Below are positions 3,815 through 59,239 of a stretch of DNA of 64,000 nt, one piece after another. The translations under genes were made by a program, and so were the position numbers. Under the pieces are notes generated by a model. The model saw only the letters and a list, made by a program, of their open reading frames with translations. It made no database searches and had not been told where the DNA came from. The stretch comes from Deuterostichococcus epilithicus (Eukaryota > Chlorophyta > Trebouxiophyceae > Prasiolales > Stichococcaceae): NCBI GenBank assembly GCA_033439295.1, contig JAVTLE010000007.1, forward strand, positions 248,001 to 312,000, written 5' to 3'. Positions within the stretch are counted from its first letter, which is position 1. Every line of letters starts with the position of its first letter.

Positions 3815-5669
3815 ATGGAAGGTCTGGTGCAGCAGCACCTGGAGGGGCAGCTGCTGAACGCCGCAAAACAGATCGAGGACCGGGTAGACACTCAGCTGCA
3901 CAAACTCGAGAAGCTCGACGGCGACGACTATGAGCGCCTGCGCGAGCACCGACTGCAGGGCATCAAGCGGCAGGTGCTCAATAAAACAGGCCTCGACGCC
4001 TCAAACTGCTCCTGCACGCAGAAAATGTTTCAGATGTATGACCATGACCGAACTACCTGTGCTCGCTGCTGAGAAATCCTCCTTGCACCCCGTGGCCATA
4101 GGCGATGCGGCGGCAGCAGTGGCTGGCGCGGGGCCACGGCGAGTACCGGGAGGTGCTGTCGGAGAAGGACTTCTTCGCGGAGATGAAGGGCGAGGAGCGC
4201 ATGGTGTGCCACTTCTACCGCGACAACTGGCCCTGCAAGGTGCGCACTTGCGCAAGAGCGTGCAGAGGCTGCCTGCTGGAAGTGTATCTTGGCTGCTCAG
4301 TGCGCTTCTGATCGCACGTGTCTTGCCTCTTCTTACGCATCTTCAGGGCTGGCCTCCCGCTCTGTGGCTGGCGGAGGCTTGCAGACCGCAGCGGGAGCGT
4401 GCAGCTCCAATCGAGGACGTGGCTGTGCATAACCGGTAGGGCGCGGCTGCCGCGCAGGTCATGGATAAGCACCTGGAGCAGCTGGCGGCGAGCCACGTGG
4501 AGACCAAGTTCGTTAAGGTGATCATCTCCTGCTGCTTTGCGACGAATAAGAGTCTCGAAGTTGCAGCGGTGTGGCAGGGCTGCTTACTAACTGAACTGGC
4601 GCAAAAGCCTTGGTGTGGGAAAGCGCTGCTGCTGCTGGGCCGACATGCATTGCTAACATGGCATCGAAGGTGCAGCGCCTTTCACTAAGTGGCGTGCAGG
4701 CCACCATCTCATCGTCCTGCACATGACTTATTGCTCGCACAGCTGTGGCAACTGCGGTATTATGGGATAGCAGCACGAGCCCAGCCTTGTGCAGCTCTGT
4801 CGAATTTGATAAGCTGGGTCTGGAACTCAGCGTTCGGCGCTTTTCTGCCGCAGATAAATGCCGAGAAGTCGCCCTTCCTGACGGATCGGCTGAAGATTTG
4901 GATGCTGCCAACGCTGGCGATGGTGCGCCACGAGAAGACCGTCGACTACATGGTCGGCTTCGAGGACGTGGGTGGCACCGAGGACTTTCCCACCTCCGCG
5001 CTCGCGGCGCGCCTGCAGGTGGGGTTCAGGGTTCAACTCCAGTATCTATGATCTGCCCCGTACTGCCGGTGGCACCAAACACTTCCCCCCCGCCATGCTC
5101 GCGACGCGCCTGCAGTGGAATCCTAGGCTAGGTCCAGGGTGGGACTTGGTTCAGGAGATGCCTCTTCTGCAGGCGGCACCGAGGACTAGTCGATGTCAGC
5201 ACTCGCTGCACGCCTGCAGGCGCGCAATGGGTATGCAGGGTTTAGGATGTGGCGCTAAGGAGTTCCCACCTCCGCACTTTCTGCGTTCCAGCGGGTGGAT
5301 CAAGGGTCTAGGACCCATTTCTGCTGTGCCTCTGCGCTCAGCGCGCGCCTTCGCACGGGTGCAGGGCTTTTCTTGCGGCTCAGCTGCTGGCAGTAGTCAC
5401 AAAACATTCCCACGGCGCTGAGCGGCGATCTGCCCACGCTGTTGTGCCTTTTGAGCGTCTCCCTGCCATGCGACCGCTGACATGTTTCCTGTAATGTTAT
5501 GCACGTAATGGTGATTGGATGACGAGCTTGCATCCCACGCGCGCAGGCCGCGGGGTTGCTGTTGGAGCCGGAGGCACCGCCGCCGGAGGCGCCGCGGCGG
5601 GCGGTACGGCGAGGCGGCCCTGTGCGCGCCGCGCAGTCGGACGATGAGAGCTCCGACTTTTCGGATTGA
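3815..5669 (+). CDS. TXNDC9: TXNDC9 / phosducin-like thioredoxin-fold protein
   Basis: Five exons: 3815-3973, 4102-4239 (or from 4117, same frame), 4458-4517, 4854-5018, 5547-5669; 214 residues against about 226 in human TXNDC9. The N-terminal helix (DDYERLREHRLQGIKRQ) leads into a family signature with GHGEYREV and VCHFYRDNWPCK, then the thioredoxin-like core (ETKFVKINAEKSPFL, LPTLAMVRH, YMVGFEDVGGTEDF). The family lacks the redox CxxC, and none is seen here. The C-terminus is Pro/Arg-rich and ends in an acidic Ser-Asp tail (SDDESSDFSD), a likely CK2 target. Family knowledge: a cytosolic cofactor of the CCT/TRiC chaperonin in tubulin and actin folding. Intron 4 holds degenerate copies of the end of exon 4. 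Confidence 0.93.
5068..5365 (+). repeat. Four degenerate copies of TXNDC9 exon 4 end
   Basis: After the real exon 4 end (about 4970-5018, GGTGGCACCGAGGACTTTCC to CGCGCCTGCAG then the donor), similar segments recur at 5068-5113, 5173-5220, 5246-5290 and 5326-5365. Each keeps parts of GGYGGCACCrAG, CCACCTCCGC and CGCGCCTGCAG. They carry stops and frame changes and are not needed for a full-length protein. Confidence 0.8.
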
Positions 5670-6551
5670 CGTTTTTAGCTGCGGGCTTCGGCCTCGCAGC
5701 CCCTCAGCTGCGCAGTTTTAGATTGGCAGCAGCATGTGTGCTTATGCCGTGGCGTCCACACGCCGGTGACTGTGCTACCATGCGAAGCCCACGGGAGCAC
5801 ACGATGGACTGGGTGGTGAGAGGTGGCACTGCTGAGGCCGTGCCGTGTGTCCAGTGCGGGAGCTGCAGGAGCTCTCAAGAAACAGAGGGCTTGCCTCGAG
5901 CATGCGTCTTGAGACTGAAAACGTTGGAAATACGGCAGTGAATCTGCCATTGGAATGAGGGCTTCCCCGAAGATGCGGTGAATTGTGGTGTACAACTGGG
6001 TGGCTGCTAAATGCCAAGGCAGAGATGGTCGATGAGCTGCATGGGCATTCCAAATGCCATCTAGTTCGTGCTTGAGGTAGCGACTGGTTGAAGCACACAC
6101 AGTGGGTACAACTGATTCTGGGTTTGAACGTGTGCCAGCACATCGACCTCAATGCGCAACGAATAGCAGCGCAGACACTACAGCTGCATGTAAGGTGCAG
6201 GCTTTACACTTGTCTTCTAGATATGTCTTCTAGAGTGCGGCCACCACCCAGCAAACACAGAGAATGGTTGACCTGCAGTCCTGACCTCGTCAAAGCAATT
6301 TTCTGTCCCCAGACCATGTCAGAGATCATGTTCTGGCGGCGGCCAGACGCCCACATCATCTCCCATCGAGAACGGACTTGGTTGCCGCACACATGCATGG
6401 AGCCGCGCGCGCGCGGCTTCGTCGATATCCAATCCAATCTGCTGCCATGCATGCTGAGGCACGAGTGAGTCCTTGCTCCCGATCCAAGTTCACGGCTTGC
6501 TTTTTGTGTGCGACGCGATGCTCGCCTCATCTGCCCACCATCATTGTATCT
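5670..6551. other. Convergent spacer
   Basis: This lies between the ends of TXNDC9 (+) and the minus-strand gene at 6552-7425. No exon-like segment with family similarity was seen; it should hold both 3' UTRs. There is an alternating CG tract near 6405-6417. Confidence 0.5.
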
Positions 6552-10707: not shown

Positions 10708-13080
10708 ATGGCGCACACCAGCTCAGCACAGTTTCTTCAGTCAGTGCCACTCACATGCGGAAGCGCTTTCGCCACACCGCCTGCGGCTCCGTGCAGACTT
10801 TTGATGCCGCGATTGCAGAGGTTACAGTTTGCTGTGCAAGAAGTGCCAGCAGCTAGGCTTTTGCTGCAACGGCATAGAGTCACGGCTGCTCGTGCCGCCG
10901 GCGCGGATGAAGTGGTCCCACCAGCTCCTCCAGCGCCGCAGCTGTCCCAGGCAGTGCCTGGAGATGCCCCGCGGCTGCTGAGGACGGCCACGCAGTGCCT
11001 ACTCTGCGGCGTGGTGGTAGCTGCCGCAGCGGCGCTGCTGCCCGCTGCCTCCTGGGCAGCCTCAGCATCAGCGGGGAACCCGACGAACTTTCTTGCACGT
11101 GCGTAACATGCCAGCGTGCTCAGCCTGCAGCAGACCCAGCATAAACTGTGCTGTGGCCTCGAGCTGCCGCCTTCAGCATACACAACGCTGGGTTGCGCTG
11201 GAGCAAAAGTCATTTCGCATTGCGCCAATGCGAGTTCAGCTGAGCAATGAACAACATGTTCATGGAGCATGCCCAGGCTGTATGACTTGAAGGGATGCAC
11301 GCAGGGCTGCTGGACTTCGTGCTCCACCTGGACGAGCACCTGGGCCGCATCATCGCGGAGCAGGGCACCACGCGCGCCTATGCGCTGCTGGCCGGCATCG
11401 TATTCTGTGAGACCGGCCTGGTGCGCCGGGAAGCATCTTGAAGCATGCCCCATTGGTGTGGCCAAGTCTGCTGGCCTTCCAACCTTGCAAGAATGTGGAC
11501 CAATGCTTCTGCGCCAAGCGGAGTATCAGCGGCAATTCCCTCCAGGCCTCGAGGCTGTGCCCGCATGCAGATGCAGCTCCTGCGCAGGAGGCCAGCTCCC
11601 TTCACGGCTGTTTTGAATTACAGGTGGTGACGCCCTTTCTGCCAGGCGACTCGCTGCTGTTTGCGGCTGGCACGCTGGCGGCGCTCGGCCACCTCGGTCT
11701 GGTGCCGCTGTTGGGCATCTTCATTGTCGCCGCGACGCTCGGCGACGCTGTCAACTATGCCGTTGGCCAGTTTCTCGGTGCGTGTCCACTGTGGCGGTGC
11801 CCCTCGACCCTTGAAACTCGTTTAGTGTACTAGATAGGAGTGTACTAGATAGGACAGGCGGCCGGCCCGACCGCGGTGCGTGCGCGCCGCAGTGGCCCCA
11901 CCTGTGGATGCCTTCACAAGCACTTCACTCGGATTCTCGAGCCCCTGTTCGGTTGGGCACTACCTCCGTGCGGACTGGCGACGGCAACCCTCTACCCGAT
12001 GCCCTGCGATCCTGATTGTCGTCCTGCAAGAGTCCTCGAACGTGATGTCTGCGATGACCCTGCGGCTGTCACGTCTGCAATGCGAGCAACATTGGAAGCA
12101 CCAGCTGCCTGCGATATTGTGCCCCAGATGGCATGCGTCAGGGCTTGTAGGCACGTTGCTGAAAGCAGGAAGCAGACGGAATCTCGCTGTGTCAATCCGT
12201 TCAGGGCGCTATCTCATGCTGGTGCCTCTGGGGACCTGAACCCCACATCCAAACACATGTGGCCCGCAGGCCGCAAAGCGCTGCAGTCGCGGGCGGTCAA
12301 CCCGGCCTACGTGGAGAAGACCCAGAAATTTTATGCCAAGCACGGCGGCAAGACGGTGGTGCTGGCGCGCTTCGTGCCTATAGTGCGCACCTTTGCGCCC
12401 TTCGTCGCCGGCGTTGGCAGCATGCACTACTCCACCTTCGCCATGTGCGCTTTTGCTTCTGTCCGGCGCCCCTGCCTGCCCTTGCGGCCAGTTCTGAAAC
12501 TTGCAGCATGCACTGCTCCACCTTTGCCATCTGCGTGCAATTTTCTTCTGGTGTTGTCAAGGCCCTACGTCTGGCCTGCTGGCCGGCTGCCGCTTGCTGG
12601 CTGCACATTGCGGCATCGCCGTACCGCTAATTGCCATGTGGAAGCACCCCTGCACGAGGCGCCCACGTCTCTGCTGCTAGGATTTTTGCACATCCTGGCT
12701 CCAGAGAGGCGCGGTATCTGCCTGCAGGGCGATTCAAACTGTGTATCATGCGAGTGATAGCATCAGCGAAGCTACTTCAGTACACAATCCTGCTCACATG
12801 CCTGCAAGGCACCTGCTAGAAGTCCAGCCCACTTTCCGGAAGGAGCCGTCACATTTCGCACAGGTACAACATCGGGGGCGCGGTGCTGTGGTCGGTGCTC
12901 TTTGTGGGCGGGGGGTTTTTGTTCGGCAACCTGCCCTTCGTACAGCACAACTTTACGGCAGTCGTGCTGGCGATTGTTGCGGTGTCCGTGCTGCCAGTTA
13001 TCTATGAGGTCTGGGCTGCGTGGAAGGAGGAAGCGGAGTCGCATGGTGAGCCGCCCTCCTCCAGCCCTGGAGCGGCGTGA
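10708..13080 (+). CDS. DedA / VTT-family membrane protein, probably plastid
   Basis: Five exons: 10708-11098, 11305-11420, 11624-11777, 12270-12444, 12864-13080; 350 residues. The first ~125 residues are Ala/Arg/Ser-rich with no acidic cluster near the start, consistent with a transit peptide, followed by one hydrophobic stretch ([18 protein letters not shown]). The DedA core follows: [19 protein letters not shown], the [15 protein letters not shown] motif, the conserved [16 protein letters not shown] (family F/YxRxxPxxR), and two late membrane segments ([18 protein letters not shown] and [17 protein letters not shown]). Family knowledge: DedA proteins act in membrane homeostasis and are proposed lipid scramblases or flippases. 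Plastid location is inferred from the leader. Intron 3 holds a 15-bp duplication and intron 4 a copy of the exon 4 end. Confidence 0.9.
11824..11853. repeat. 15-bp perfect tandem duplication
   Basis: AGTGTACTAGATAGG occurs twice head to tail at 11824-11838 and 11839-11853, within DedA intron 3. The exact identity suggests a recent duplication. Confidence 0.9.
12501..12544 (+). repeat. Degenerate copy of DedA exon 4 end
   Basis: The real exon end at 12417-12444 (GCAGCATGCACTACTCCACC, then TTCGCCAT and the donor GTGCGC) is echoed at 12503-12544 by GCAGCATGCACTGCTCCACC and TTTGCCATCTGCGTGCAATT. The copy lies in the intron about 86 bp downstream and retains a GCGTGC-like pseudo-donor. Confidence 0.8.
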
Positions 13081-17065: not shown

Positions 17066-18771
17066 CTACAGGCGCTCATGTGTATACACAGCCGGCTGCA
17101 GGCAGAGCGCGACAGGAGACATTGGTGCCTGCAGGACCTGCCGCCAGGGCTGTCGTCGGATCACGACTCGCTGGAAGCCCATGGTCTTGGCTTTCAGCAC
17201 ATACCTGCGCAGATATACAGGGTCAGTATATAGATATAGGGTCAGTGCGCTCTGCAGTCGTCCAATTCGACGCCGTGAGGCCGACATTCGTGGCCATCTC
17301 CGCAGTTGCGTCCCTCAGCAGTGCCATGGGACCTGGGAACAAGGTGGCAATGGGGCGCCGCTTGGGCGGTACACAAAATGCAGCTGCGGCAAAGTATGCA
17401 GCGGGCGCTGGCAGAGGCCGTACAGGCGCAGGTGGACAACTGGCGGGGAGGTGCGCACCCGGGGAGGTGCCGCTCTGCGCTGAGGGCGTGGGTGGCGTTG
17501 ATGGTGGGCAGGCCGTCCAATGCCTCTGCCTGGATACGAATTGAAGACAGACAGTGAAAAGTCGATTTAAATTTCATTTGCCAGTGGCTGTACTCTGTGT
17601 CTGCAAGGCCGAATGCTGCACCAAGCGTTGCATAGCCTGCCATTCGCAGAGTGCAGCGCCAGGTCGGATGCCGTTTACCTTGTCAACCACCCAGCCCTGG
17701 TCTGCTTCCAGGAAGCGGCTGACGCCCGACATTGCTGGCAGCACGCCGATGTGGAGAGTGCACGGCCCACCCTGCGCGGCGCATAATGTCAGCCGCAGTC
17801 AGGCACTAAGCTGATTTGGCAGCAGCAGCAGCGAGACGGGCCGCTGACCGCCTGGGCAGCATGTCTGCTGCTGCAAGTTTGCGCCATCGAAGCTCCAACA
17901 CATCCACCTTTGCCATGTGGCACACCTCTGGTGAGCCGGGCTGAGCTGCATACATCTGCTGCATGGCAGCGCCGCCTGGGTAGTTGTAATGCGACGCCTT
18001 GGTCGCAAGCAGCACGACACCCAGGCAGCCAATTGCCGCAGCACCGAGGGCCGCATTCCACAGGGCTGCAGTAAGCCATTGCCGGCGGGCCATCTTCCAG
18101 ATGCGAGCCAGGGCTGCGGCGGCCGCAACGTTGAACAGCGGCAGCACCGGGAACAGGAACCTGACCTGCGTGGCGGTTGGAAAGAAATTCTCGAGCCTGC
18201 TGGGCTGTAGACGCGCCGGGTTTGAGATCGCGGCCGAGCACCGGCGCACTTTATGACTATCTGGGCAGGGTTCCTAGTGCAGTTTTCGACAGCATGCTCT
18301 GCACGTGTTGTGGGGCGATGCCGGTGAGGCAGCAGCTGCCGCACCATTTGCACTGCCGTTCACCAGCATCGCCGCTCTGGCAGAAAGCGACGCACGCAAC
18401 CGGTGCAGTCACTGCGTCGCTCCTGAAAGGAATTCAGTCAACCCGCAGACTTTTTGACGTGGGAATGATTCGCTCGAACAAGGTTGGCACCTCCTTGTGC
18501 GGTAGGATCGAGTACAGCGCCACGTATATTGCCGCCACGCCCGCCGCCGGCCGCACCCGGGGATCCAGCGCAGCGCCCAGTGGCGCCAGGGGCAGCGCGA
18601 TCAGCAGCGCGCGCGGCAGCGCCGACGTCCAGTACCAGTGCCAGGGCTGCACACCCCAGGCGCCGCTCCTGCGGGTCGCAGAGGCATTCAATGCCGCGGA
18701 ATTCAAAAGACCATCAGCTCTGAACCACATCGCAGCCGCAAGCTGGAGGAGCCTCAACGAGCAAAGACTAG

Positions 18772-18839
<68 letters not shown>

Positions 18840-20640
18840 GCAGCGGCAGCGGCAGCGGCAGCAAGAACAGGGCAGCCTGAAATGGACGTCGCTCAGCAAA
18901 GTCAACTGCCCAGCGCATGCAATTTGTGGCATCGAATTGCAAGCAATGCAGAGGCGTGTTGAGGGTGGTGGATTTGTTTAGCAAAGCACTCAGCCCTGCT
19001 GACGCTATTGACACTGAGTCAACACCGCGCCATGGCTGCCTGGAGGCTCTGGGACAAGGCACCAGCCCCACTCAAACATAACCGCAATCAGCTACAGAAA
19101 CCGAGAAAAGTGTCGTATCAAGATTCGCGCACTTGTTGAGCACCACGTTGAACCAGAACACCTCGCCCTCCGGCCACAGCGGGTGCCTCCACAGCAGCGA
19201 GTCCGCTGGCGCTGTCGCTGCTATCGCCGCCGCCGCTGCCGCGAGGCCGGTAACAAGACCACTGGCGACGCCCAGGCGGCCAGAGCCCAGCAGCTGCAGG
19301 CCCACGAGTGCCAGCAGCAGTGCCACGTCGCACCGGAACACTGCCTGATGACATGGCAGCGCACACAGTAGGGAATTGTGGTTTCAAGGCATGATGCGCC
19401 AGTAGCGGCATCGCATCGCACTGGAACACCACCTGCGGACGCGCGAAGGAAATGGGGTTTGGGGCGCGGTCAGATTGGAGCCTGCCTTGGGGCGCCATGC
19501 CGCACAAGGACACTGCCTGCAGGGCAGCCCGCAGCTGATGGTTTTGGATTTTGAAGGACTTTGCTCTGCGGGCGGGGTCGGGCTGGGCGCGACCGGAGCC
19601 TCTGAGTGCTGCAGCGGCCTCGTCTGCCAGCCTGGCTGCAGCACTTGGCTGCAACGGTCATGCTGGGTGCTGCTGATCTCGAAACTGACTGCTGTCTGCC
19701 GCGCAGCTTGGCGGCGCAGCGCACCAACGCAACTACAGTAACTACAGCAGTGCAGGGGCGCTGGCCTTCTTGTCGACGGCGTTGACGAGCGCTTGGCAGA
19801 GGCATAAAGCTCACCGTCGTCAGCGTCAGCAGGGTGACCACCCAGCGCGGCCGCCGCGCACGCAACCAGTCTGCATACGCCGCGCAGCACAACGCCAGAG
19901 CAAAGGTGTTCGGCAGCGGCCGGCTCGCGTAGAAGGGAATGTGGAACTGCACGGCGATAAGCGCCGCAAAGCACCCGGCCGCCAGCGGGCCGACGGTCGC
20001 CGCCACCGCCCGCTGCAGCGATGCCATGCCGCAGGCCACCAGCAGGGCCTGCAGCAGTCAATCCGCCGGAGGCAGTCCGGAGCGAATCGGCAGCCACAGC
20101 AACATCGCATGGCACTGTCTGGGTCCGATGTCACTCCTGCTGAACATCAGGTGAGCAGCGCATATGACCCAGTTCCAGTGGTGGCCAACACAACAAGCGA
20201 ATAGATGCGGCTTGCGCACCAGCGTTGCGCGAGCGACATACAGGCCGCACAGCTTCGAGCAGCCAAGCGCCTTGGCGGCGGCCACGAGCGGCGCGGAGAT
20301 GCCCGCAAGGATCGCCGGGCCTGTCACCAGCAGTTTGCGAGGCACTTGGTATTAACGAGAGAAACCGTCGGAATGTGTGGATTTAAGCATCAGATTCTCA
20401 TTGTGCCAAGGATGGCGCTGCAGCACTGGACGGCTCACCAGCGAAGGTCCTCGGAACCACCCCAGGGAACTCGTTGTGGTCATATGCTGCCAGATTGTTG
20501 CGGTGAAAGATCAGGTCGTGCGTGGCCTGGACGTTGAAGCTCTCTTCCACTTTGGTGTATGGTGCGTTGGCAATGTGCAGCATCACCACAACGAAGAAGA
20601 CGCAGCTCCGGAACGAGGCCATCTGTCCAAAAGCAATCAA
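17066..20640 (-). CDS. ALG12: ALG12 Dol-P-Man alpha-1,6-mannosyltransferase
   Basis: Nine exons, 5' to 3': 20439-20640, 20220-20320, 19815-20048, 19133-19344, 18491-18668, 17926-18165, 17679-17771, 17459-17529, 17066-17204; 489 residues, or 483 from the second Met at 20622 (human 488). The N-terminus has the GT22 luminal motif [16 protein letters not shown] and [10 protein letters not shown]. Later signatures are [56 protein letters not shown] and SHYNYPGG. The C-terminal exons ([20 protein letters not shown]) are divergent but join in phase. Family knowledge: adds the eighth mannose to the lipid-linked N-glycan precursor in the ER lumen (EC 2.4.1.260), a multi-pass ER membrane enzyme. Intron 4 holds 21 CAG units and intron 3 a copy of the exon 4 start. 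Divergent with LeuRS. Confidence 0.93.
18775..18837. repeat. (CAG)21 microsatellite
   Basis: Twenty-one uninterrupted CAG units on the plus strand, followed by interrupted CCG CAG CGG CAG units to about 18860. It lies in ALG12 intron 4, so the transcribed strand reads CTG. Long poly-Ser, poly-Gln and poly-Ala frames here are artefacts of the repeat. Confidence 0.95.
19391..19433 (-). repeat. Degenerate copy of ALG12 exon 4 start
   Basis: On the minus strand the real exon 4 start reads GCAGTGTTCCGGTGCGACGT after its acceptor (19344 downward). About 88 bp upstream in intron 3, CAGGTGGTGTTCCAGTGCGA then TGCGATGCCGCTACTGGCGC repeats it with substitutions, including the CAG acceptor. Confidence 0.8.
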
Positions 20641-22466: not shown

Positions 22467-22507
<41 letters not shown>

Positions 22508-41466: not shown

Positions 41467-44400
41467 CTACTTAAACTTGATGGAGACGAGGGGCACGTCG
41501 ATGTCCTCGCCCGCCTCGTCCTCGCAGGCGACGACGACGTCAAAGTGGGCCCGCGGCCCCGACAGGTCCGCCTTGCCGACTGACTGCACCAGGTCGGACA
41601 GCTTCTTGCCGAGGCGCTCCCGGTGCTTGGGGAAGATGTTGTTGTACAGCAGGCTCTGGCCGTAGGAGAAGGAGTAGGCCTCCAGCTTGCGCTCCTGCGC
41701 GGTTTGTGCAGGGGCCAGGTTTGTGCAGGGGCCAGAGTTAGCAGGGGCAAAGAGTAGCAGGGACAAACGTCACATCTGCTGCACCAATAAGCATCTGCAT
41801 TGGGTGGCAGCTCCGTGCACCATGCCATGCTGACCTCTGTCAGGACTGAAAATATGCAACCTGCATCTGCACCGTCCCGGCATGGGCCGCTGCATTGGCA
41901 GAATAGCAGCAGCACAACCTGCAAGCAGGCCCGTGACTGGCACCTGTCAAGAGCTGCGGTGAGGAACACACTGCATGTCACACAGCGCTCAAGATACTTC
42001 CCAGGGCCGCATGGATGTGGAAGTGCAGTCGGTGAGGCGGGGCCAATTTTGAGAGCGCACTGCAAACCAGTCGAGCACGTCCTGCACCGTCATGTCGCCC
42101 TCCAGGATCCAGCGGTCCCAGAGCGTCCACTGCATGCCATCGTACTCCGCGCCCTGCGGCATTTCAAATCACTGCCTCGGGGATGGCATCTTCGGTCATC
42201 TTCACCGTGGTACAGATTCCTGCGGCCCTCAAGCCGGACTGCAGACCAGCTAGGCCAGCAAGCACGTGCACGTGTGAAAGGCACACAGCCTGACAGCCAC
42301 GCCCGCTTCCATCAAGCTTGCACAAGGCAGGGCCTGTCCAGCGCTTCTCATACAATGCCACAAACGCGTGAGCTGGTGTCACCACAATCCCCTGCGTCGT
42401 TGCCGCAGAGCCATGACAGGCGACCAATGCCCGGCAAAACAAGCCATCTCCAGCACAGCAGCACCTTGGGCGGGATGGGCTCCGCCATGGAGAACAGCGG
42501 CAGCGCCAGGTTGGCAAAGGTGTTGCGGTATGCCTCGATGGGCTTTCCCTGGATCACCTTGTACAGCTCCAGGCACACCAGCCCTGCGGCACACGTGTGC
42601 ACCATGTCGGATGTGCATCATATGACAGAGTGGGTTCGGCCTACCGGTGCCGAAGCGAATGAACAATGGAACGCGGGTGAAGGTGACGATAGCCAGTAGC
42701 AGGGGCACGGGTGTTTCATGGGCCACCTGACGAGCAGAGTGCCAAATTGTTGCGCAGGCAGGGGAGACGACACCAGGCAGTCGTGGTCGTTCGGTTTGCC
42801 GTCACAGCAGGACGTGCGCGCACCGGTGGCGAGCGATGTGGCGGTGGCGATGGCCGGGATGATCTTGCCGGCGATGAGCTTCGCCTTCAGCTTGTCCACC
42901 TCCTGTGTTCGGAGAGAGAGAAAGCCAGTCGTGCTGCTGTGGCCGCCGTCTCATGCGGCATGCCGCCCCGAGAACTGCAAAACAAGCACGAAGCAGCGGC
43001 AGGCTAGCACACCTTGTGAAACCCGCATGTGCGAATGCCCCCGCGTGTACGAACGATCGGTTCTCCAGCAAATCTCGTCTTGAAAGGCAAGCTGCTTGAG
43101 CACTGCAGTCTGAATCACGCGCCTGCAGCGTGTAGTTGCGTGCACGCATGTTGGCCAGCCCCAGGATGAAGTCCATGTGGTAATTTGTATCGTCGTCCTT
43201 CTCAAACTGGATGGCCTCCAGCTTGTAGCCCGGCTCCAGCTTGGCCTGCGCCTCCTGCGGGAGTGTTGGAGATCAGGTGTTGAGGGTTTGAGAATAGGTG
43301 TGTGCGCAAAACTGGATGGCCTGCAGCTTGTAGCCCGGCGCTTGGCCTGCGCCTCCTGCGGTGACAGAATGTCGTCCAGGGTTCAGCAGGATGTTGCAAG
43401 TGGGCGAGTGGTCACTGGATGGCCTCCAGCTTATAGCCAAACTCAGCTGCGCCACTTTGGGAACGTGGGGGTTTCCCTCCATTCACATATGCCTGGTGGT
43501 GCAGATGTGAGACGCTGGCACACCATTGTCACGGCCTGAAAGAACACAATGTGAGTGCACAAGAACAAGAAGGTTTCTGCTGCTGGGGTGGGCGTACACG
43601 CACCCGCAGCTGCTGCGCAAGGGAGGTGATAGTGGACTCGTCATCGCCGGCGGCGGGGCCTGGCGCCGCCGATGCCGCTTTTGGGTCCGTCTCGATGCGC
43701 ACGCCTTGCTGAGGCTGGAAGGGCGGGATGTCCACCTCTGCCGCCTTCTGCCCCACCTGTCATGCACGTGAGTATGGGAGTTTTACATGGTATGGCGCAG
43801 GAAGGTGTGCACGGCTTCAACGAGTTTGCAGGCACGGTTACCTGTTTAATGTTGGTACACTCAGAAATGAATCGCAGACAAGACAATAGCCTGAGCATGC
43901 AGCTGCACATGTCTAATTTCCTTTCATCAGAGAGCCGGCCTGTAGGAAAGGGAAAACAGGCTGAAGGGGGCTCAACGCACCTGTCCGGGGTCGAAGGCCC
44001 ACTGCGGCGGCTGTATGCAGTAGGTGCGTGCCTTCAGGATGGACGCTGCCTGGATGAATGCGGCCTGCGACATGACCCAGGACCATTTCAGATGCGCTTA
44101 TTTGCACCTCAGAAAAACACTTCCTCAGGTAATGTGGCCAGTCTGCACAATCAGGCTGTTCCACAACCGGGTTGCTCATCAAGGGTGCCACCGGCGCACA
44201 AAGGCCTCGCCCCGGCTAGCAATTTTACGTCCGGTCTCCGCTACGACGGGACAGGTCCTGGTGCATGCAACTCGCCTGCGAGGGGTCGGCGGCATCGAAG
44301 GTGAGAGCGCGCGGGAAGCGCTTGGGTGCGGACCAGAAGGGCGCGCCGGTGGAGGTCACCGCATCCTCTGGGAAGGTGTACACCAGCTGCGCGATGCGGT

Positions 44401-47400
44401 CGTGGAACTGCGTCTGCGACACAGGGAATGCGAGACGTGTGTGTATCCACAATGCTGCGGCTGTAGCAGTGGAAGTCAAAGGTCGCAGAACTGGATTCTT
44501 CTAGAGAATCTTGATGCGAACGGCGACTGCAAGGACCGCAGACAAGAAAAGAGAGTCTCCAACGACTGTTCAGAACCTGGGCGAGAAACGGAGCCTGAAT
44601 GCCCACTGTGCTGCAATGATGGCAGAGTCTGCAGCTTGTGAGAGACGGTCGTTTCGGATCTGAGAAGCATCATGCAGCACAATCACTGCAACCTGGTGGC
44701 TTCACTCGGTCCAATTACAAACCCTCTCACAGCTGAGCGACCAATTACAAACAAGGCCAGGCGGCGACGCCAGGGCCTGTGCCCGCATGTGGCAGCAGCG
44801 GTACGGATGCGAACCACAGACCACAGACACGGGCACGGGGCGCGAGAACACGAGGGAAGGCAGGGGGACACAAGAGGCGAGGGGAACAGGCACCTCGAAC
44901 AGGCGGCGTGCCCAGGCAATGCACTCCTCAAACGAGTGGCAGCGGTCAGAGACCAGCACCTCCGCAACCCGCTCCAGCCGTTCCCGCGCGGCGCTGTCGC
45001 CCGCCGACGCTGCCTCCTCCAGGTATCTGCCGCGCATCAATCAGGCATGTGTTCGTGTGACAAAATCCCAACGATACACTCCGTTAATTAGAGACAAGGC
45101 CCAGCTCGACGCGTGTGAGTGTGTTGACAATGTTGATCATGCCTTGCATTGTCCTAAGCTTGCACAGATGAGCAAGGCGAAGCTGTGCAACATGGAGAGA
45201 GCCACTGTCATATTAATGAGTGGAGCCTGGAGGAATGCAACAAGATTGGAAGCGCGCACTTGGAGGGGTCCCGCAGGAAGGCGTTGGCCTCTGCGGGCGA
45301 TTTCTCGAGCAGCCCCTCAAACTCGGAGCGGGCGAACGTCAGGCAGTGATCGATGTTGTGCGGGAAGCTGTGCAGCGTGCACATTGGCGCCTGCTTCTCC
45401 GGCGGGTCGCGCGACGCCCCTGCAAGTGGCACGGCAGCGTCTAACAGTTGATCGCGCATGCGGGCAGGTCACTCACATGGCGAGGGTCCGGTGATGGGTG
45501 CACAAGCTGCCTAGCAGGAATGTTGTTACGGCGCTTGGTGGCTTCGTGTCTGTGTGCCAGGATGCTGCATTTGCAGAGGTCGTATGCTAGCTGGGAAAAG
45601 CCTGCAACTGCTGCCAATCCCGCAGTCCCCACAGGTGTGACTGCCCTTCATGTCTGCAGGCACTGCCTGCCTCCGTCATAGTTAGTTGTGCGTCCTAGGC
45701 GCCCAGTGATACCGCGTGCAGCTTGAGAGCAGTCACTTGCCAAACCACACCGTGCATGCTAGCACACAAGACCATGCATGTCGGCTGAATGACATCACCT
45801 ACCATAGTTTTCTGTGATGTTGGGCACCACGACCTGCGTGTTGGCCTTGGCGCCCAGGGTGCCACTCTCCAGCAGCGGCCGCCCAAAGTACACGCAGCGG
45901 CTGTCCACATACAACCGCGCATTCACGTTGTCCAGCGCGTTCACAACAACGTCCAGGCCTCCCCAGAAGGCGTCGTCAAACACCATCTGCGCACGCGTGC
46001 ATACAAAGCGGGTGAGCAGGTGTGCCCCTGGGGCTTGTTAACTGTATGCCATTTACAGGCACACGATGGACATGATACAGGCCTGCTGCTGTACCCTGCG
46101 CAGATCGACTCTGCCGTGTCCCTTGCGCACCCCGGCAGGCAATTATTGACAAAGCGCATGATGCACAAGGCGGCCAGCTGACATACTGCAGCTCACTCAC
46201 ATGTGGCAGCAGTGGCAGCAGCCCGCAGCAGTTGGGACTGTGGCTCCGGCTCTTTCCACTGTAGGATGCTCTGGCTCTCTCCACTACGGTGCCGCACCTC
46301 AGAGTCGGGGGACACGCGATTTTGCAACGCACAAACCCGCAGCGCCGGATTGATGGCCTCCGCCGCCTTTGCCGCCGCTGAGGACTTGGCACTGCATGGG
46401 GCAGGGAGTGACGACATCAGACATGAAAGTTCGTAGGCTTTGTGGCAGATGAAGGAGTTGTGTTTGGCGAGACCCAGTGTGCGCCGACAACAGGAATTTC
46501 TGCTGGGCCATGCGGCTGGCAGGAGGAACTCGTCGCCAGTGCATTTCATTAGTGGGTGCTGTTTGAGGTGCGTTTCATTCCGTGAGTCCGCGCCCACCCC
46601 GGCCCACGTTCAATAGGATATTTTCTGCATGGCAAAAGTGCAGACGCACGACCAGCCACTCACTTGCCGATGTCCCAGTCGCGGAACAGGAACTGGCGGC
46701 TGAGGTTGCTCTTCTCGATGACATCGTCATCGGTCAGCGTCACGCGGCCGTTGCCGCCGCTAGCGACGCCCATGCATGCGAAGTTTTTGACGAATTCGCA
46801 GCCTAGGGCGCCGGCGCCCACCAGGAACAGGTTGAGCGCCTCAAGCTTGGCCTGCAGCGCCGAGCCAAAGACGCCCACCTGACCATCGTACCGCGTGCCC
46901 TGCGGGGCACCGTGAAGTCGCACTCTGATGACGCGGCCCATTCTGTGCTCGGCCCAGAGGTCCAGGGTGCAGCATCACCAGCTGCATATTCGGTAGCGGG
47001 AAGAGGGGGTCTCTGATTGGGGGAGACACCCAGATGACAGTTTCAGCGCAGGGTCGACTGTTCCATATATCGGCTAACATGCCACAAGTCACCAACTCAA
47101 AGCGGACCACGCTGATTGGACTCAAACTGAACGCGCAGCACTGTATGCTTCTGCAGAGGCATGCTTCACAGTGATGTGGAACATCATCACGGAAAATTGT
47201 AGAGAAAGCGGCCTGCCTTGGGCGCGCAGGCCTCTGGCGTGAGGGACTCCACCGGCGGCAGCGACTCCACGCTGTCAAAGTAGAACCATTGGAACAGCGG
47301 GTGGAACTTGCCGCTCACTGCCTTCATCACCTGTGTGTTTGAACCGGATTGGGGGATCAGCAACGGTTCACGCACGCGACGCCTTGCGTTGCGCACCAAG

Positions 47401-50794: not shown

Positions 50795-53700
50795 ATGCAT
50801 GGAGCGCCGGCCCCGCCGCCGCCTGCCGAACACATTGAGCTGCCGCCGGCGGAAGATGTCGAGCCCTTCGAGCTCAGGAGCGCGGCCTTCTTCAAGGTCA
50901 CTTTTGGCACCGATGTCTGTGCCGGCTGAGCCGCAGACTCGCCTGGCGCAGTGCTGCAAGCCGCCATGATGCTCAACCTTGCTCACGCTGCGACTGCGCA
51001 GCCAGCACCAGGCATCGCATGCGCTTTTCGGCTCCAGCCTTTACCACAGTCCTGCCTCTCGGTCGTCTGACGTCCTCAAAGGCGACCCTGTTTTGGTGCG
51101 GCCGCGCAGCACATGCTGGCGGGCGCGACGGCCGGCATGGCGGAGCACACGGCAATGTACCCGGTTGACACCATCAAGACGCGGATGCAGGCACTGGCGC
51201 ACCCGGGGCAGCAGGCGCGTGCAAATGCCTTGAATCAACCGTGCAGCAGTAGGCATCGCACCGGCGGACGCCTGTATCCTGGCGGCCTCCATGATCATGT
51301 TTAAAATGTGTGTAACGTGCGAACTTCACACGTATGGGGTATGAGCCCAAAGGGCAATGTGAATCGGCAAGCATCTCGTGCACGCAGCTGCGCGGCAAGT
51401 CCATCAGCCGGGCGGTGTCGGCGGTGCTTCGGCGAGAGGGCTGGCGTGGTCTCTACTCCGGTGTGCGTGCCCAGCTGCTTGGCACCGGGTGCGCCTGTTT
51501 CTTATGAGTCTGTGCCAACAGGAGTTTCGGCAAGGCAGGCTGCTCAGCCATTCAGCAGGCGCGCCTGCATGCATGATCGCACGGATGGCGCTGGGCCAGC
51601 CGCCCGATGTGAGCTGCATGTGGAACGTTCTCCAGCGAAGCAAAGGCCATGGTGGTGACTGGAGCGGCGTGCTTGAGCGCACATGCGTCTCATTCGCTGC
51701 ATCATCAAACGGTCACTGCGACTGCTGCAAGCCAGCGCACGCACATTACCTTGCGACATACCAGGAGCCAAGGGCAGATGGCAAGCCCGGCTGCATCAGT
51801 CGACCTGTTCCCACAGCAGATGATCTTCTGTTTTGTCAACACCCAGACCGGCGCACGATATGCTTTGCGGCCTACGAGGAGGCCAACTGGATGGCTGGTG
51901 GACCTGTCGGACCTCAGTTCCTGCATCCGACCAGCCGCAGCAACTCGTCTCTGTGCAGTCTCGCAGGCCGGCGCACGCGATCTGCTCTGCGACCTAAGAG
52001 GAGGGCGAGCGGCGGCTGGTGGGCCCCTGAGCACATGCGCCTCGGTCGCTTGAGCACTCGACGAACCTTCAAAATGGCCGAAGCCCTTGACCGCCTCAAC
52101 CGCAGGCCGGCGCACGCCATCTACTTTGCCACGTATGAGGAGGCCAAGCGGCGTCTGGTGGATCCCGCGGATCTTGGGCAGGCGCACGTTGCCACCGCGG
52201 CCGCTGGGGTGCTGGCCACCATTGCCAGCGACGCCTTCAATGTGCCTTTCGACACCGTCAAGCAGCGCCTGCAGGTGGGATTGTAAGTCTGTTTGCCTGG
52301 CTCGGCAAACAATTGACGAAGAAGCACCGCTGCGCCGCCCCGCAGCAGTGTAGGGTCAGATGCGGCCTCTGCACTTGGCGTATCAGCATGGGCGCTGCAG
52401 CAACGGCTCCTGATGAACCTCTGTACAGCAGTGTGAGACCTGGCCGATATGTTCACACGTGTGCGGCTAAGGCGCAGCTGGGGCACCGCATGATCATGAG
52501 CATCGTGCGCATGCAAGCGCCACTACGTTTTCAATGCCGCACGACCAGCCAAATGGCGCCAATTTGTGTGGCTGCTCTGCAGGTTGCGCACAGCCCCTAT
52601 GCCGGCGTGGCAGACTGCATCAGGGTCATGCTGCGGGAGGAGGGTCCGCGGTCCTTTTTTAAGTCGCTGCGCACAACGGTGGGGGCCTTTAGGGCCCCAG
52701 ATAGATGCTTTGACGCTGGGGGGCCGCAGCTGCCGAGTCCATGCATGGGTGCACACAGCTCCGCAGTCAGGGCTGCCGGGTGGCTGAGGGAGCTCGCTGG
52801 GGCTTTTCACGTCCCAACCATCCTGGTCCGCTGCATGTGCACTGTGCTGTATAGGCCGTACTGTCGAGAATGCCTCGTCTGCCTGTCCCTGCGCTGCTGG
52901 CTGCACATGCGCCCTCCTGTGCATGGTTCGCAGAAGCAACGAGCACCGCTCCCACCACTGGCCTGGCGGCATTCACGAAATAGTGTTGCCCCGCAGATCC
53001 TCATGAACGTGCCGTTCACCGCGATCCACTTCACCGCGTACGAGGCAGGCAAGCGCGCGCTGGGGGAGGCGGGCCAGGCGGAGGGCCTGCGCTCGGAACT
53101 GCTCGCCGGCGGCGTAGCCGGTGCGCAGCTCCAGACAATTTTCATTCACCCTGTTGACAGGGTTCTCAAGGAGACAACTGTCATTCAAGCAGCTGTTCGG
53201 CGGCTACGCTGGTGCGCAAATTTTGTAATGAAAGAATGACAAACCCTAAATTAGCAGCTGCTGCACGGCTGCTCGCCAACGTCGGATGGCGGCTTCACCT
53301 GTGCACCATGTCTTGACACATGTCTCACAAGGCTTTGCCAAGGTATAGGATCACGAGAGCTGGCGCTCCACGCTGCTTGCTGGCAACATAGATCGTTTTC
53401 TACTCATCGCTGATAAGGGTGCGACTGAAGGACTGGGCATCGGCATAGCCGATGCGCCATCGTTGATCAAGTCGTTGCCAAATTCGAAGCAGCGAAAGGC
53501 TCCGCAGCTTCTGGGAGGATGCAGTGGCAAAGATTCCCGGTTTGGCAGACCAGATTCTGCTATCTGACTGCTGCACTAACGATGCTTCGACAGGGCACCT
53601 CCTGCAGACGCCCTTCTGTATGAAGCCTGACCTGTCCATTCGCGCCGAGCGCCGATAGTGACTCCCTGCAGGCGGCCTGGCGGCGGCGGCGACGACGCCC

Positions 53701-54915: not shown

Positions 54916-57900
54916 CTAGTCGCCATGTATGGTGTAGGTGCTGTACACTTGTGCGGCATCAAACTGCTCCCATCGCGACGCTGGGAAGATATGCTTGTTC
55001 CTGCGCCCAGCACAAGACGAACCAACTCAGAGCCACCGTTTGGTGGCTGTGGGTTTACACGCTGACCGAAACTCGTGTCAACTGTTGACGTGATTGTGAT
55101 GCCTCCCGTCATATTCGAGGCCATCCCTGCTCACCAAAGCGCACAGTTGACTGCCTGCAATACTCTTGCCCATGAACCCTCAGCACGCCTTTCATGGCAG
55201 ACCGACACCTCTCCACGATCTTGCCGGCGCGCCGCCGCCTACCCAGTGTCCCAGGAGTCGAGATTCCCCTCGCAGCTGCAGTCTTTTTCCAGGATGGAGC
55301 TTCACCCACCCGTTGTCCCAACACCGTTCCACCTTGCCGGCGTGCCGCCTCGCCCCGTCCACAAAGACATGCTCAGACGGAACAAGACCCCGCAGGGGCA
55401 GCATCTTGAAGGTGCTCGTCTATTGCACTGGTGCCGATTCACCACCTTGGCGTACCTCTCGTCTCTTTTCTCAAGTTACTACAGACGAGATGCTGCTTCC
55501 AGTACACGGTTATCCCAGGACAGCATCCTTCCCACACCCACCTGTTGTACCAGTGCCGCTCCACCACCTTGCCGGCGTGGGATTCGTCCTTCTCCACACT
55601 GGCATCATTCACCAGCCGCACGTCCTCGTGCACATCGAAGTGGAACAGTGGGCCGCTCTTGCCGCGCGCCTGCGGTCAGGATCGAGTTGCGCTCGCATTT
55701 GATGTTCCCATAGTTGCTGCCTGAGCTAGCAGATGCACCGGGTGCCCCCGGCGAGCCATTCACGAGTGCTGCTGCAGGCACGGGGCCGCTGGTGGCCCGC
55801 ACATCAAACAATCTGCGTTTTTGGGGAGTTTCAGGCGGAGTGCTGGGGGTGGCGCATAGTACTTCACCACGCGGCGCGGCGGTTGACAGCAGCTGAGCAG
55901 CAGCCAAATTGCTCCCGACAGGTAAGCAAGGGCAGACGAAAAGCAACCGGAGGCCTAGAGTCACCTTGTGGACGATGGGATCACGCACGGGGTTGGAGGA
56001 CAAGGTACAATGGTTGCGCAGGACAAGAGACAAGGGACTGAGAACCCCAGAGTCATTCTGATGTTGCGGAAGTGTGCAACGCTGAAGCACCCGAACAGAT
56101 GGGATTACACAAGGCGAGCGGCTGGGAAACCATCAAAGTTACCTTATTGACAATCAGGTCGTAGAAGGTGTGGGAGTGCGGCAGGATGATGTCCTCCTTC
56201 ACGTACAGCAGGTCCGAGGCGCCCACGCCACGCAGTTCCCGGAAATCCGGCGACAGCTGCGGGGCAGCATCACCAAATGCTTTGGCGTCCAAACCATGAT
56301 TGCAACCAGCCCGTCGCCTTTCGTCAAATCCGAGGCGCCCGCGCCACGCGGCTCCCATAAGTCCGGCGAAGGCTGCGGACGCATGATTGATTTTCCTCTG
56401 GCTCCTCCCAATTCGATGTACAAGGCCGAGCCCACACCGCGCAGCTCCCGGCAAGTCCAGCAACAGTTGCAGGTGCCACAATAAAGCAACTGTTGTGACG
56501 ACTCGTCCTCGTTGGAGCTGACCTCGATGGTGTTCAGGCCTAGGCTGTGCAGCTCTCGAAGGCCTGCGACAGCTGGGGGCGCACAGCAGAGGTAAAAGAG
56601 TGTCCTTCCATAATCCGACATCGGGCATCATGCACGAAAGCGCTGCTACGCAGCTCCCGGATGTCCAGCGACAGCCATGGGCGCCAGCGCGGCTCTTTCT
56701 GTTGTCCGGCCCTGGCACAGCAGCCATGCCGCAGAGGTGTTCCCATCGGCAAGTAAAAGGCTCCTGGAGCAGCCTCTGCAACCACAAGCGTTCCAAGGCA
56801 GCATGACCCCTGGCACAAGTGCCGGCACTTGACGGGTCTCGAAAACTGGTCATGGCTGTAGGCTCTCAGAGCGAGGGCTACTCTAGCGACAGCAATTCAT
56901 CCGACTGTAGGCCCACGCTGAGTTGCGCACGGTAAGCAGAAAATTCGAGACGGAGTCTCCCTTGCGCAAATGTCACAAAACTTCAGACATCGGGCCGAAG
57001 GCGCTCCAACAAGCAGGCTTTGCCTGTAAGGATATTTCACAAACCAGGAGGGTCCGCACCTGGTCGCGCACTGCGCGCAGAAAGTCTGCAATGGAGTCAC
57101 CCTTGCGCACGGCGACCTTCCGCCGATGCCCGGTGCCGTCCCAGTAGGAGTAGGTGATCTCCAGCGGCTCATTCTTAATGATCTGCAGCGCACCATCAAC
57201 ATACAGCTTCATGATCTGTGTCGCAACGACAGTCCCGAGCCTTGTAATATCAGAGCTCTGTTACATCAACAGATGAATTTGGAGAAAAAGCACAGGAAAA
57301 AGCATCAACACATGCAGTTTCGCGCAGGGGGCTCTCTCAGTTGCATGGGATCAACACCCCTTGACAAGTTGCCAGAGTGGAGGAAGGAGGCAGGGCAGCA
57401 CAGGGGCCCCGCGGCTCCAGCACCGCCGCCGCCCGCTGCTGCGAGCCATGTTAGCTCGCTGGCAGGCCGGGCCTCGTGCCCACGCCTCGCAAACAGCCTC
57501 TAGACTCCAAAAGTTCGAGGAAATACCTGCCAGCACAGGCGCAGGGGGACGTTTGCGACCCTCACGGTCTTGTAAACCAAATCCTGAAGAAAATCTTTGG
57601 AAAGCGTGCCTGCTGCCGCAGGGTGTACTCCTTTTTCAGTTGGACTCGCATCTCCTCCTCCGCCGCGACGCGCTCCCGATCCGGCAGGAAGTCCGTCTTC
57701 ACGCCAGGGTCCTTGCCTGAGCTGCCACGAAATGCTGTTGGCCTGTATTGCCAGAGAACTGCTGCGCTGGTCCTCAGATGATCGGCCAGCTTTGTCGGGC
57801 GTTCTGTTGGACCATAATGCGTACTCGCTGCCAGGCGCTGTGGGTATGTGGGTTCTGAAAAGTGCACAGATCGTCACACACTGTGCATGCTTGAAACACT

Positions 57901-59239
57901 CTTTCGACAGAGTCGCAGGCCAGCCGCCTGTCCAGCAGCACACAGATAACGGCAAGAGCAGCGCACCCAGCTTGAGCGGCGGCCGCGGTGCTGCCGCTGT
58001 GGTGTCGCGGTCCAAGCCGCCGCCCGAGAGTGCGGCCGCCGGCACCGCCGCTGCAGAGTCCGCCTCCGCTTCGTCCTCCTCCTCATCCCCCATGAATGAC
58101 AGCTTGGACTTTGCAGACAGCTTGGCCTTCTGTGCGGCGCGGTGCTCCTTCTCCTGCCATTGGAGAAGCGAGGACTGTCAGGCGGACGGGTGCGAGTCCC
58201 CGTCGGGTGGCGCCGCCGGGCCGCGCTGCGCAGCAGTGCAGGCCTCGTACTACAGACACTGGAGCCCAAAACACATACGCTGAGCGCCTCTGGGCATGTT
58301 CCCACAGAAGCCGGCGTGAGCGCTGGCTGCAGTGCCGAAGCACAAGCGGCAGCGAAGGCCAGAGACCTGTGCGAGCCATGCAGGCGCTGCAGATCTGCCG
58401 CCTCAATATCACGCAATGCGGTGGCTTCGTGAGCTGTCCCAAGCCAGGCGCCAGATGTGAGCAGTCTCCCGCGGCGTTCTATGGCAACTCTGCTGCAGGC
58501 CGGCGATGTGCAACAGCGCGCGGCAGCCCCAACTCTGGCGGAATCCTTGGGAACTTGGAATTCGGGACCCACCAGGGCGGCGGCGTCCTCAGCGGCACGC
58601 TTTGATTGGCGGGCGTCCTCCTGGAACCGCTCCGCCAGCGTCGAACGCTTGGACAGAAACTCCGCCTTGGTCACCAGGCCCACCGTTTCGTTCTTAAAGG
58701 CGTTCTCCAGCGCCTCTGCCTGGCCGGTGCCAAACTGGCGCAGTGCGGCGGAGGTGGCGGCCTCATCCAGCTTCGCGCGCTCCTCCTCGAGCTGCTTCTT
58801 CTGCGCCTCCCGCTTCTCCTGCTGCCGCCTACGGGCGAGGGCGTGTGGTTCAGCGCTTCATATGGGTGCGTGCAGCAGCTCCACATGGAGACGTGTTGTA
58901 ACGGGCGCCTGAGCCACGCTGACCCGGCGGCGCATGCACAGCTGCGCAGCCAAGGCGCTGAAGAGCGAGGCTTACCACGGGCGATGGGGGGTGCACAAAA
59001 TGAGTCCCTTGCGCAGGGCCAGTAGGTTGCAGTTGTGCAGTTGACTTGCAAAGCGGTGCAATCAACTGATTGCACCGCTTTGCAAGTCGACGCCGTGCAG
59101 TTCAGCCGCAGGTGCAGTGCCCGCTTGCAGCGATAACCCTGAGGGCGTACTGCGCGTGACGATTATGAAACATGCAGCACCTGATGCGGCGGGCATCTTC
59201 CCCGCTGCCCACATAGCCGCCCATGCCGTAGCCGCTCAT
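54916..59239 (-). CDS. XCT: XCT / XAP5 (FAM50) family nuclear protein
   Basis: Eight exons, 5' to 3': 59181-59239, 58534-58828, 57967-58153, 57610-57716, 57060-57182, 56143-56256, 55542-55669, 54916-55000; 365 residues. The start [20 protein letters not shown] parallels plant XCT, followed by a charged coiled coil ([20 protein letters not shown]), [15 protein letters not shown], an acidic patch after [18 protein letters not shown] and [18 protein letters not shown]. The conserved XAP5 domain has [57 protein letters not shown] and [18 protein letters not shown], then [11 protein letters not shown] and the plant-like end YTIHGD. Family knowledge: XCT affects the circadian clock, light responses, small-RNA levels and splicing in Arabidopsis; FAM50A is spliceosome-associated. 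Exon 4 ends in a GC donor (CAG|GCACGC). Three introns hold junction copies and intron 1 a perfect hairpin. Confidence 0.95.
55196..55466 (-). repeat. Three degenerate copies of XCT exon 7 end
   Basis: Plus-strand text of the real junction, about 55536-55592 (CACCTGTTGTACCAGTGCC, then TCCACCACCTTGCCGGCGTG), recurs at 55427-55466 (GGTGCCGATTCACCACCTTG), 55303-55355 (CACCCGTTGTCCCAACACCG, TTCCACCTTGCCGGCGTGCC) and 55196-55245 (CCTCTCCACGATCTTGCCGG). Spacing is about 105-120 bp. They lie downstream of exon 7 on the gene strand. Confidence 0.85.
56321..56684 (-). repeat. Four degenerate copies of XCT exon 6 start
   Basis: The real exon edge on the plus strand is 56204-56262 (GGTCCGAGGCGCCCACGCC, CGCAGTTCCCGGAAATCCGG, CGACAG|CTGCGG). 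Copies are at 56321-56383 (TCCGAGGCGCCCGCGCCACG), 56416-56472 (CGCAGCTCCCGGCAAGTCC), 56521-56582 (TGCAGCTCTCGAAGGCCTGC) and 56636-56684 (CGCAGCTCCCGGATGTCCAG). The spacing is regular, about 95-115 bp. Confidence 0.92.
56921..56970 (-). repeat. Degenerate copy of XCT exon 5 end
   Basis: Real exon 5 end on the plus strand, 57062-57110: CTGCGCGCAGAAAGTCTGC then ATGGAGTCACCCTTGCGCAC. The copy at about 56930-56968 reads GGTAAGCAGAAAATTCGAGA then CGGAGTCTCCCTTGCGCA. It lies about 140 bp downstream of exon 5 on the gene strand. Confidence 0.8.
59043..59088. repeat. Perfect 21-bp inverted repeat, 4-nt loop
   Basis: GACTTGCAAAGCGGTGCAAT plus C (59043-59063), loop AACT (59064-59067), then the exact reverse complement (59068-59088). 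It lies in XCT intron 1, 93 bp downstream of the exon 1 donor. A perfect 21-bp stem is improbable by chance and can form in DNA or RNA. Confidence 0.95.

Follow-up and report, generated by a model that had tools for sequence, protein, structure and literature searches.

The window analysed here, a 64,000-nucleotide stretch of Deuterostichococcus epilithicus (contig JAVTLE010000007.1, positions 248,001 to 312,000), is compact, intron-rich nuclear DNA with a G+C content of about 60%, for which the curated models give 14 genes with 106 introns and, before the last model corrections, a median intron length of 239.5 bp. Some of these introns contain decayed copies of the exon-intron junction at their own edge, each consisting of a piece of exon together with the splice site. 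The edge copies occur in excess over the background, lie to one side of the functional edge, follow one another at a characteristic spacing and decay near-neutrally, and the outer copy is conserved where this was checked. All counts, controls and simulations given below refer to the 64-kb window only.

The genes were modelled with a small hidden Markov model trained on the window itself, followed by hand curation, and are self-trained predictions drawn from the DNA alone. Pfam recognised thioredoxin (TXNDC9-like), VTT (DedA), Alg9-like mannosyltransferase, tRNA synthetase (LeuRS), a WDR75-type propeller, E1 (UBA1), mitochondrial carrier, XAP5 (FAM50) and pseudouridine synthase. A predicted uL16/L10 ribosomal protein aligned closely to Protein Data Bank chains, the top-ranked of which we take to come from land-plant ribosomes. 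The consensus splice sites are CAG/GTGCG for the donor and YGCAG/G for the acceptor. Small predicted exons were removed by eye (e.g., 19430–19432, 23635–23651, 23717–23723, 29182–29186, 43013–43062, and 46979–47012); also by eye, the carrier exons 51388–51423 and 51559–51619 were replaced by 51388–51489, and two cyclophilin exons were added. The concatenated frames break in places in the LeuRS, UBA1, carrier, and cyclophilin models, while single junctions are unaffected.

Every exon edge, represented by 70 nt of exon and 25 nt of intron, was compared by alignment with its own intron and with the 105 others, with the score corrected for intron length and query, and the 11,130 comparisons of edges with foreign introns on each side served as the null. 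Ten of the 212 edges, from six genes and nine introns, score above every one of the 11,130 foreign comparisons on the same side (p<1e-4). Five are donor edges (TXNDC9 5018, DedA 12444, LeuRS 27392, FAM50 57060 and 55542) and five are acceptor edges (LeuRS 23849 and 27242, carrier 52106, UBA1 43254, FAM50 56256). At p<0.01 there are 15/212 edges (seven donor and eight acceptor, in seven genes), where about two are expected, and the number of affected introns is 9/106 by the strict and 14/106 by the lenient count. The initial annotation of this DNA, which had reported twelve edges in seven genes and one intron in nine, was about right: the present ranges are 10–15 edges, 6–7 genes and 9–14 introns. 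That the copies are due to chance or to an assembly artefact is practically negligible as an explanation, since no foreign comparison on either side reaches the ten edges, and since the exon parts are 2–29% diverged with many indels, which assembly errors do not produce. The copies, together with the weaker and borderline cases, are as follows.

4971–5018, plus strand: functional 3' exon edge of the TXNDC9-like gene (gene model with thioredoxin domain, donor at 5019), the source of the array
5068–5137, plus strand: TXNDC9 donor copy 1, exon part 81% identical
5172–5242, plus strand: TXNDC9 donor copy 2, 77%
5249–5330, plus strand: TXNDC9 donor copy 3, 74%, flank also similar
5331–5366, plus strand: TXNDC9 donor copy 4, weak (score 17)
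12503–12584, plus strand: single donor-edge copy in DedA/VTT, exon ending at 12444, exon part 26/28
23713–23792, plus strand: LeuRS acceptor copy 1, exon starting at 23849, from edge alignment
23630–23662, plus strand: LeuRS acceptor copy 2 of the same exon, short (score 16), acceptor signal 8.6 vs 3.9 for the functional site
23523–23561, plus strand: LeuRS acceptor copy 3 of the same exon, from edge alignment
27132–27210, plus strand: LeuRS acceptor copy, exon starting at 27242, from edge alignment
27463–27549, plus strand: LeuRS donor copy, exon ending at 27392, from edge alignment
43309–43386, minus strand: UBA1 acceptor copy 1, exon 43119–43254, exon part 46/47 plus a 4-nt deletion
43414–43453, minus strand: UBA1 acceptor copy 2, 85%
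51962–52027, plus strand: mitochondrial carrier acceptor copy 1, exon starting at 52106, 82%
51836–51914, plus strand: mitochondrial carrier acceptor copy 2, 80%
51727–51817, plus strand: mitochondrial carrier acceptor copy 3, 75%
55420–55470, minus strand: FAM50/XAP5 donor copy 1, exon 55542–55669, from edge alignment
55303–55370, minus strand: FAM50/XAP5 donor copy 2 of the same exon, from edge alignment
56329–56378, minus strand: FAM50/XAP5 acceptor copy 1, exon 56143–56256, 82%
56403–56500, minus strand: FAM50/XAP5 acceptor copy 2 of the same exon, from edge alignment
56538–56588, minus strand: FAM50/XAP5 acceptor copy 3 of the same exon, from edge alignment
56614–56688, minus strand: FAM50/XAP5 acceptor copy 4 of the same exon, from edge alignment
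56914–56968, minus strand: FAM50/XAP5 donor copy, exon 57060–57215, in the intron of the acceptor array, from edge alignment
30685–30866, plus strand: two weaker LeuRS acceptor copies, exon starting at 30919, p 0.0017
28800–28841, plus strand: weaker LeuRS acceptor copy, exon starting at 28990, p 0.005
25116–25192, plus strand: weaker LeuRS acceptor copy, exon starting at 25268, p 0.007
28022–28109, plus strand: weaker LeuRS donor copy, exon ending at 27951, p 0.006
37648–37694, minus strand: weaker donor copy in the WD40 gene, exon 37753–38001, p 0.009
19390–19557, minus strand: two borderline acceptor copies in the ALG12-like gene, exon 19144–19344, p 0.011
31665–31710, plus strand: possible eleventh case in LeuRS, outside the counts, 46 nt ungapped with 34 identical to the edge of exon 31759
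1977–2870, no strand assigned: intergenic decayed tandem array, a comparison case with a period of about 110 bp and at least seven units

The possible eleventh case is a 21-bp LeuRS exon predicted at 31668–31688, which with its splice sites may in fact be an acceptor copy that was miscalled by the gene finder.

The initial annotation had proposed a self-alignment of junctions against control segments, and this was run within the window, leaving out three of the 106 introns, which were too short (also for the test of intron gain described below). At p≤1/301 there were matches for 13/206 edges, with 0.7 expected, and for 0/56 mid-exon controls. Reverse-complemented edges matched in 2/206 cases, both in a single LeuRS intron; LeuRS intron 26837–27241 matches the reverse complement of both its own exon edges. 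The ends of coding sequences, 8/28 of which were left out because the modelled end is uncertain, gave 1/20 at p≤1/301 and 2/20 at p≤0.01, where 0.2 are expected, and both score low (16 and 19). Of the tiles taken from the interior of introns of at least 260 bp, 9/143 matched at p≤1/301; eight of these lie in introns that carry a strong edge array, and the ninth belongs to a LeuRS intron rich in GCA.

An unguided self-scan of the window, from which masked letters were excluded, gave 105/4,208 tiles scoring ≥24, against 4 in the null. Of these, 35 are intergenic and belong to the intergenic array or to a small repeat, 57 pair an intron with an exon or exon edge, 4 are intron-intron tiles, and the other 9 fall inside exons or pair an exon with an edge. 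At a score of ≥21, where some chance matches are expected, there were five intron-intron matches, all in introns with strong arrays; the other intronic matches were the edge arrays, the borderline ALG12-like array and the LeuRS pair at 31.7 kb, and a few long-range pairs lay in repetitive coding sequence. Tandem Repeats Finder (score 50) found no array in the window whose period exceeds 21 bp and reported none of the edge arrays. The introns of UBA1 contain short tandem repeats of 16–17 and 21 bp at 41701–41767 and 43261–43301, which are unlike the old units of about 108 bp.

The number of copies per edge is one to four, as the initial annotation had counted, and the exon part of each, with its splice site, is typically 28–93 nt long. 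Copies lie head to tail at apparently regular intervals of 60–142 bp (median 108, sd 20; 22 intervals from the ten strong arrays), counted with the weak outermost copies excluded, except for one in TXNDC9. Their exon parts are 71–98% identical to the functional edge, with a mean of 0.785 over the 26 copies scoring ≥19 from 14 edges. Copies within an array have far ends in common, at 48, 48, and 47 nt in the first three of TXNDC9 and at 51 and 49 nt in UBA1. Several alignments cross into the intron, by +45 in DedA (the whole length offered), +39 in TXNDC9 copy 3, -33 at LeuRS 27242, and -30 in UBA1. In FAM50 a donor array and an acceptor array are found within one intron. Affected introns are longer than the others, with medians of 528 vs 233 bp (9 vs 97 introns), partly as an effect of detection, as short introns cannot hold copies. 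The claim that the functional copy is always the outermost held wherever it was examined: at UBA1, two LeuRS edges, and the carrier, family alignments (E1, LeuRS, carrier) span the junction and identify the outer copy as the coding one, a placement that follows from selection on the protein.

The inner copies carry indels, in agreement with the initial annotation, and 34/40 gap events are frameshifts. As the copies are partial and their gaps mostly frameshifting, a reading as mutually exclusive or alternative exons was rejected. Mismatches at codon positions 1, 2, and 3 number 85/415, 70/418, and 111/407 (p 0.0006, with copies that are non-independent), and the excess at third positions would fit silent drift of the functional exon. 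The state of the splice sites was surveyed in the 26 copies from 14 edges that score ≥16 and cover the junction; the donor edges LeuRS 27952 and WD40 37552, of the p<0.01 set, were left out of the splice-site, decay, and flank analyses. The splice dinucleotide is kept in 13/18 acceptor and 5/8 donor copies, where 0.64 is expected. The decay of the inner copies is about neutral; purging or preservation of their splice sites was considered, and the counts lie close to the neutral level.

Half of the acceptor copies (9/18) score higher than the lowest 5% of functional acceptors, and 2/8 donor copies exceed the equivalent cut (p 0.39 for the difference); the decoy acceptors in LeuRS (23523–23848) and in the ALG12-like gene (19390–19557) outscore the modelled site. 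The gene finder itself called tiny exons in both of these segments. Such scores, and the decoys that surpass the real sites at LeuRS 23849 and ALG12-like 19344, are what would be expected if the inner copies were functional, acting as decoy or alternative splice sites that give frameshifted transcripts and tune gene output. We regard this as very unlikely, given the near-neutral retention of splice dinucleotides, the mostly degraded donor copies, the varying lengths, and the indels.

The arrays are probably old tandem duplications at the DNA level that spanned the exon-intron boundary, with the outer copy protected and the inner copies decayed. Duplication units of about 60–145 bp would have happened to span a boundary, some being repeated up to four times, and after each event the reading frame would be intact only at the outermost junction. 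Selection would then fix the outermost copy, and the inner ones would turn into intron and decay neutrally, so that each event would add about 100 bp to the intron and leave the protein as it was. The exon part would be recognisable longest, one of its two copies being frozen, while the intron part would decay in both. Duplication of whole units would fit the spacing, the shared far ends, the one-sided placement, and the alignments into the intron, and as these alignments cross the junction, unspliced DNA must have been the material copied. From these features we infer that every unit was a single contiguous piece copied in tandem, and that the intron grew as a result. The weak copies found outside the gene at 2/20 ends of coding sequences were likewise counted for tandem duplication.

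All ten strong arrays lie on junctions, which is where they were looked for. No intron-internal array emerged from the unguided scans apart from the one in a GCA-rich intron, and the unit length is narrow. These points would suit a process aimed at splice junctions, for instance one that starts from breaks or stalled forks at exon edges linked to transcription, splicing, or nucleosomes. When random duplications of 82–143 bp were simulated outside exon interiors on unaffected gene structures, however, 62–87% of the detectable survivors, depending on age, spanned a junction, and the probability of ten junction arrays out of ten was 0.008–0.25. Ten of ten is therefore not decisive for targeting, and geometry and decay reproduce most of the junction bias. 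The intergenic array at 1977–2870 has a similar period, with spacings of 109–121 bp and units that are pairwise 49–71% alike; the tendency is therefore not confined to junctions, and a process aimed at them appears rather unlikely. The initial annotation had proposed a general lengthening of introns by tandem duplication across junctions; tandem duplication remains the best account, and the affected introns are indeed the longer ones. Targeting of junctions is not supported.

The sequences adjoining the copies fit whole-unit duplication less well. Similarity falls off at the splice site, and nowhere more steeply than in UBA1. In an anchored flank test, confined to copies that reach to ≤8 nt from the junction (n=23), the mean flank score was 1.9, whereas unrelated flanks gave 1.05 and the divergence of the exon parts would lead one to expect 12.0; 12/23 copies fell below the expected score at p<0.05, only 2/23 rose above the unrelated level at p<0.05, and flank-to-flank pairs reached p<0.05 in 6/57 cases, with 2.9 expected. 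Under uniform ages, conditioned on detection, this deficit amounts to a Z of -3.9 to -5.1, values overstated by the non-independence of copies within one array. None of the 23 copies has a flank score above 12, where a steady process predicts 53%, and no fresh duplication of unit size was found in the window by Tandem Repeats Finder or by flank scores. In UBA1 copy 1, whose exon part is the 46/47 match listed above, the flank scores 7.5 where 32.9 is expected.

Part of this gap can be accounted for by age. Allowing for the detection of luckier copies only, the flank gap narrows and is still open under uniform ages. If all copies are old, at 0.25–0.4 substitutions per site, Z falls to -0.9, at the price of a predicted score of 23.8 and divergence of 0.237, where 27.9 and 0.200 are observed, and of 0.011 of the copies below 0.1 divergence, where 0.087 is observed. 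The gap also closes, with Z at -0.7, if flanks evolve at about 1.5 times the rate of the exon-derived parts. The flank of UBA1 copy 1 exceeds unrelated flanks at p 0.017, and this copy perhaps needs an extra cause, e.g., gene conversion from the exon. A steady, ongoing process in the window was rejected, as copies with matching flanks are missing, and the duplication process in this window does not look active any longer.

The same flanks would be explained if only the exon edge and a few bases of the splice site had been copied or refreshed, by templated insertion from the exon or by gene conversion of inner copies with the selected exon as donor. Flanks barely above the unrelated level beside well-preserved exon parts point this way, as does UBA1 copy 1, and the observed score, divergence, and flank are jointly approached more closely by the model with 1.5-fold faster flanks than by uniform ages. 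Against it stand the alignable flanks of DedA and TXNDC9 copy 3, the UBA1 flank that rises above unrelated sequence, the regular spacing and shared far ends that fit duplication of whole units, and the old age and detection bias that remove much of the gap. We consider such an origin of the arrays unlikely, and doubtful the broader proposition that exon edges with their splice site, without the adjoining intron, have been copied or refreshed repeatedly in introns of this lineage. If true, edge-only copying would give introns a supply of nearly functional decoy splice sites that renews itself, with longer introns and seeds for alternative splicing as consequences.

The donor CAG/GTGCG and the acceptor GCAG/G overlap, so that a copy could serve as either site, and introns could in principle have been born by tandem duplication of an AGGT-bearing piece of exon, the copies being leftovers of intron gain. 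This is highly improbable here, the far exon being copied at the near end of the intron in 0/103 and 0/103 cases at p≤0.01. Introners, or introns made by transposons, were rejected because different introns of the window share only 16–23 nt matches.

The statement in the initial annotation that no described system matches was too strong. Duplications at exon-intron boundaries, internal gene duplication, an origin of introns by tandem duplication, and direct repeats in young introns are all in print, here compared through passages of the papers concerned. Internal gene duplications, as cited in PMC4974935 and PMC3443670, are short, lie within genes, and can include splice sites and intron sequence, and in this they resemble the present units; as cited, they stress new introns, whereas here no intron is gained and existing ones lengthen by decayed edge copies. 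Human genes in segmental duplications, in the passages of PMC2812944, have internal tandem repeats at exon-intron boundaries that are spliced out or kept. These are likewise tandem units at boundaries, but recent, variable, and often alternatively spliced, while those in the window are old and decayed and leave the protein unchanged.

Tandem duplication around splice motifs is described in the origin of introns in the potato RdRp gene (PMC4974935) and in Drosophila cases (PMC2891723); the geometry that defines such intron gain is absent here. For potato, an 83 bp duplication inside an intron is mentioned as well (PMC4974935). In Daphnia, short internal direct repeats are enriched in newly gained introns and attributed to staggered double-strand breaks, according to PMC4202315; introns are lengthened by local duplication there too, but the Daphnia repeats are short and the edge copies are of ~28–93 nt at a spacing of about 108 bp. 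The open-access literature searched, from which subscription papers are largely absent, yielded no description of decayed edge arrays recurring in introns, which is weak evidence of novelty. What looks new is their recurrence in ordinary genes of a compact genome, at about one intron in eight to twelve and often in several copies.

If about one intron in ten holds the remains of edge duplications, a mutational ratchet, with the outer copy protected and the inner copies free to accumulate, could explain part of the intron length of compact green algal genomes. The relatives of Chlamydomonas have compact, GC-rich genomes with median introns of 198–343 bp, similar to the window, and why such genomes keep long introns is described as unexplained (PMC8226300); the passages of that paper give no mechanism, and edge duplication would be one candidate. 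The ratchet also predicts a supply of decoy acceptors. In practice, searching each intron with its own exon edges reveals arrays that an ordinary repeat finder misses.

A few other features of the window were recorded. Rfam gave 0 matches at gathering scores in the window, and comparison of one protein with viral contigs and of two proteins with genome contigs returned no relative. Positions 59043–59088, probably in the first intron of FAM50, form a perfect palindrome whose arms are 22 bp long and separated by 2 bp; a 36-nt piece of it had no match among viral contigs. The run (GCA)30 at 18769–18876 appears in the gene model as a long run of leucines of the ALG12-like mannosyltransferase and is possibly an intron misread as exon. 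By eye, one UBA1 exon apparently ends at a GC donor, AAG/GCAGGC, instead of GT (47186–47191 of the window, minus strand).

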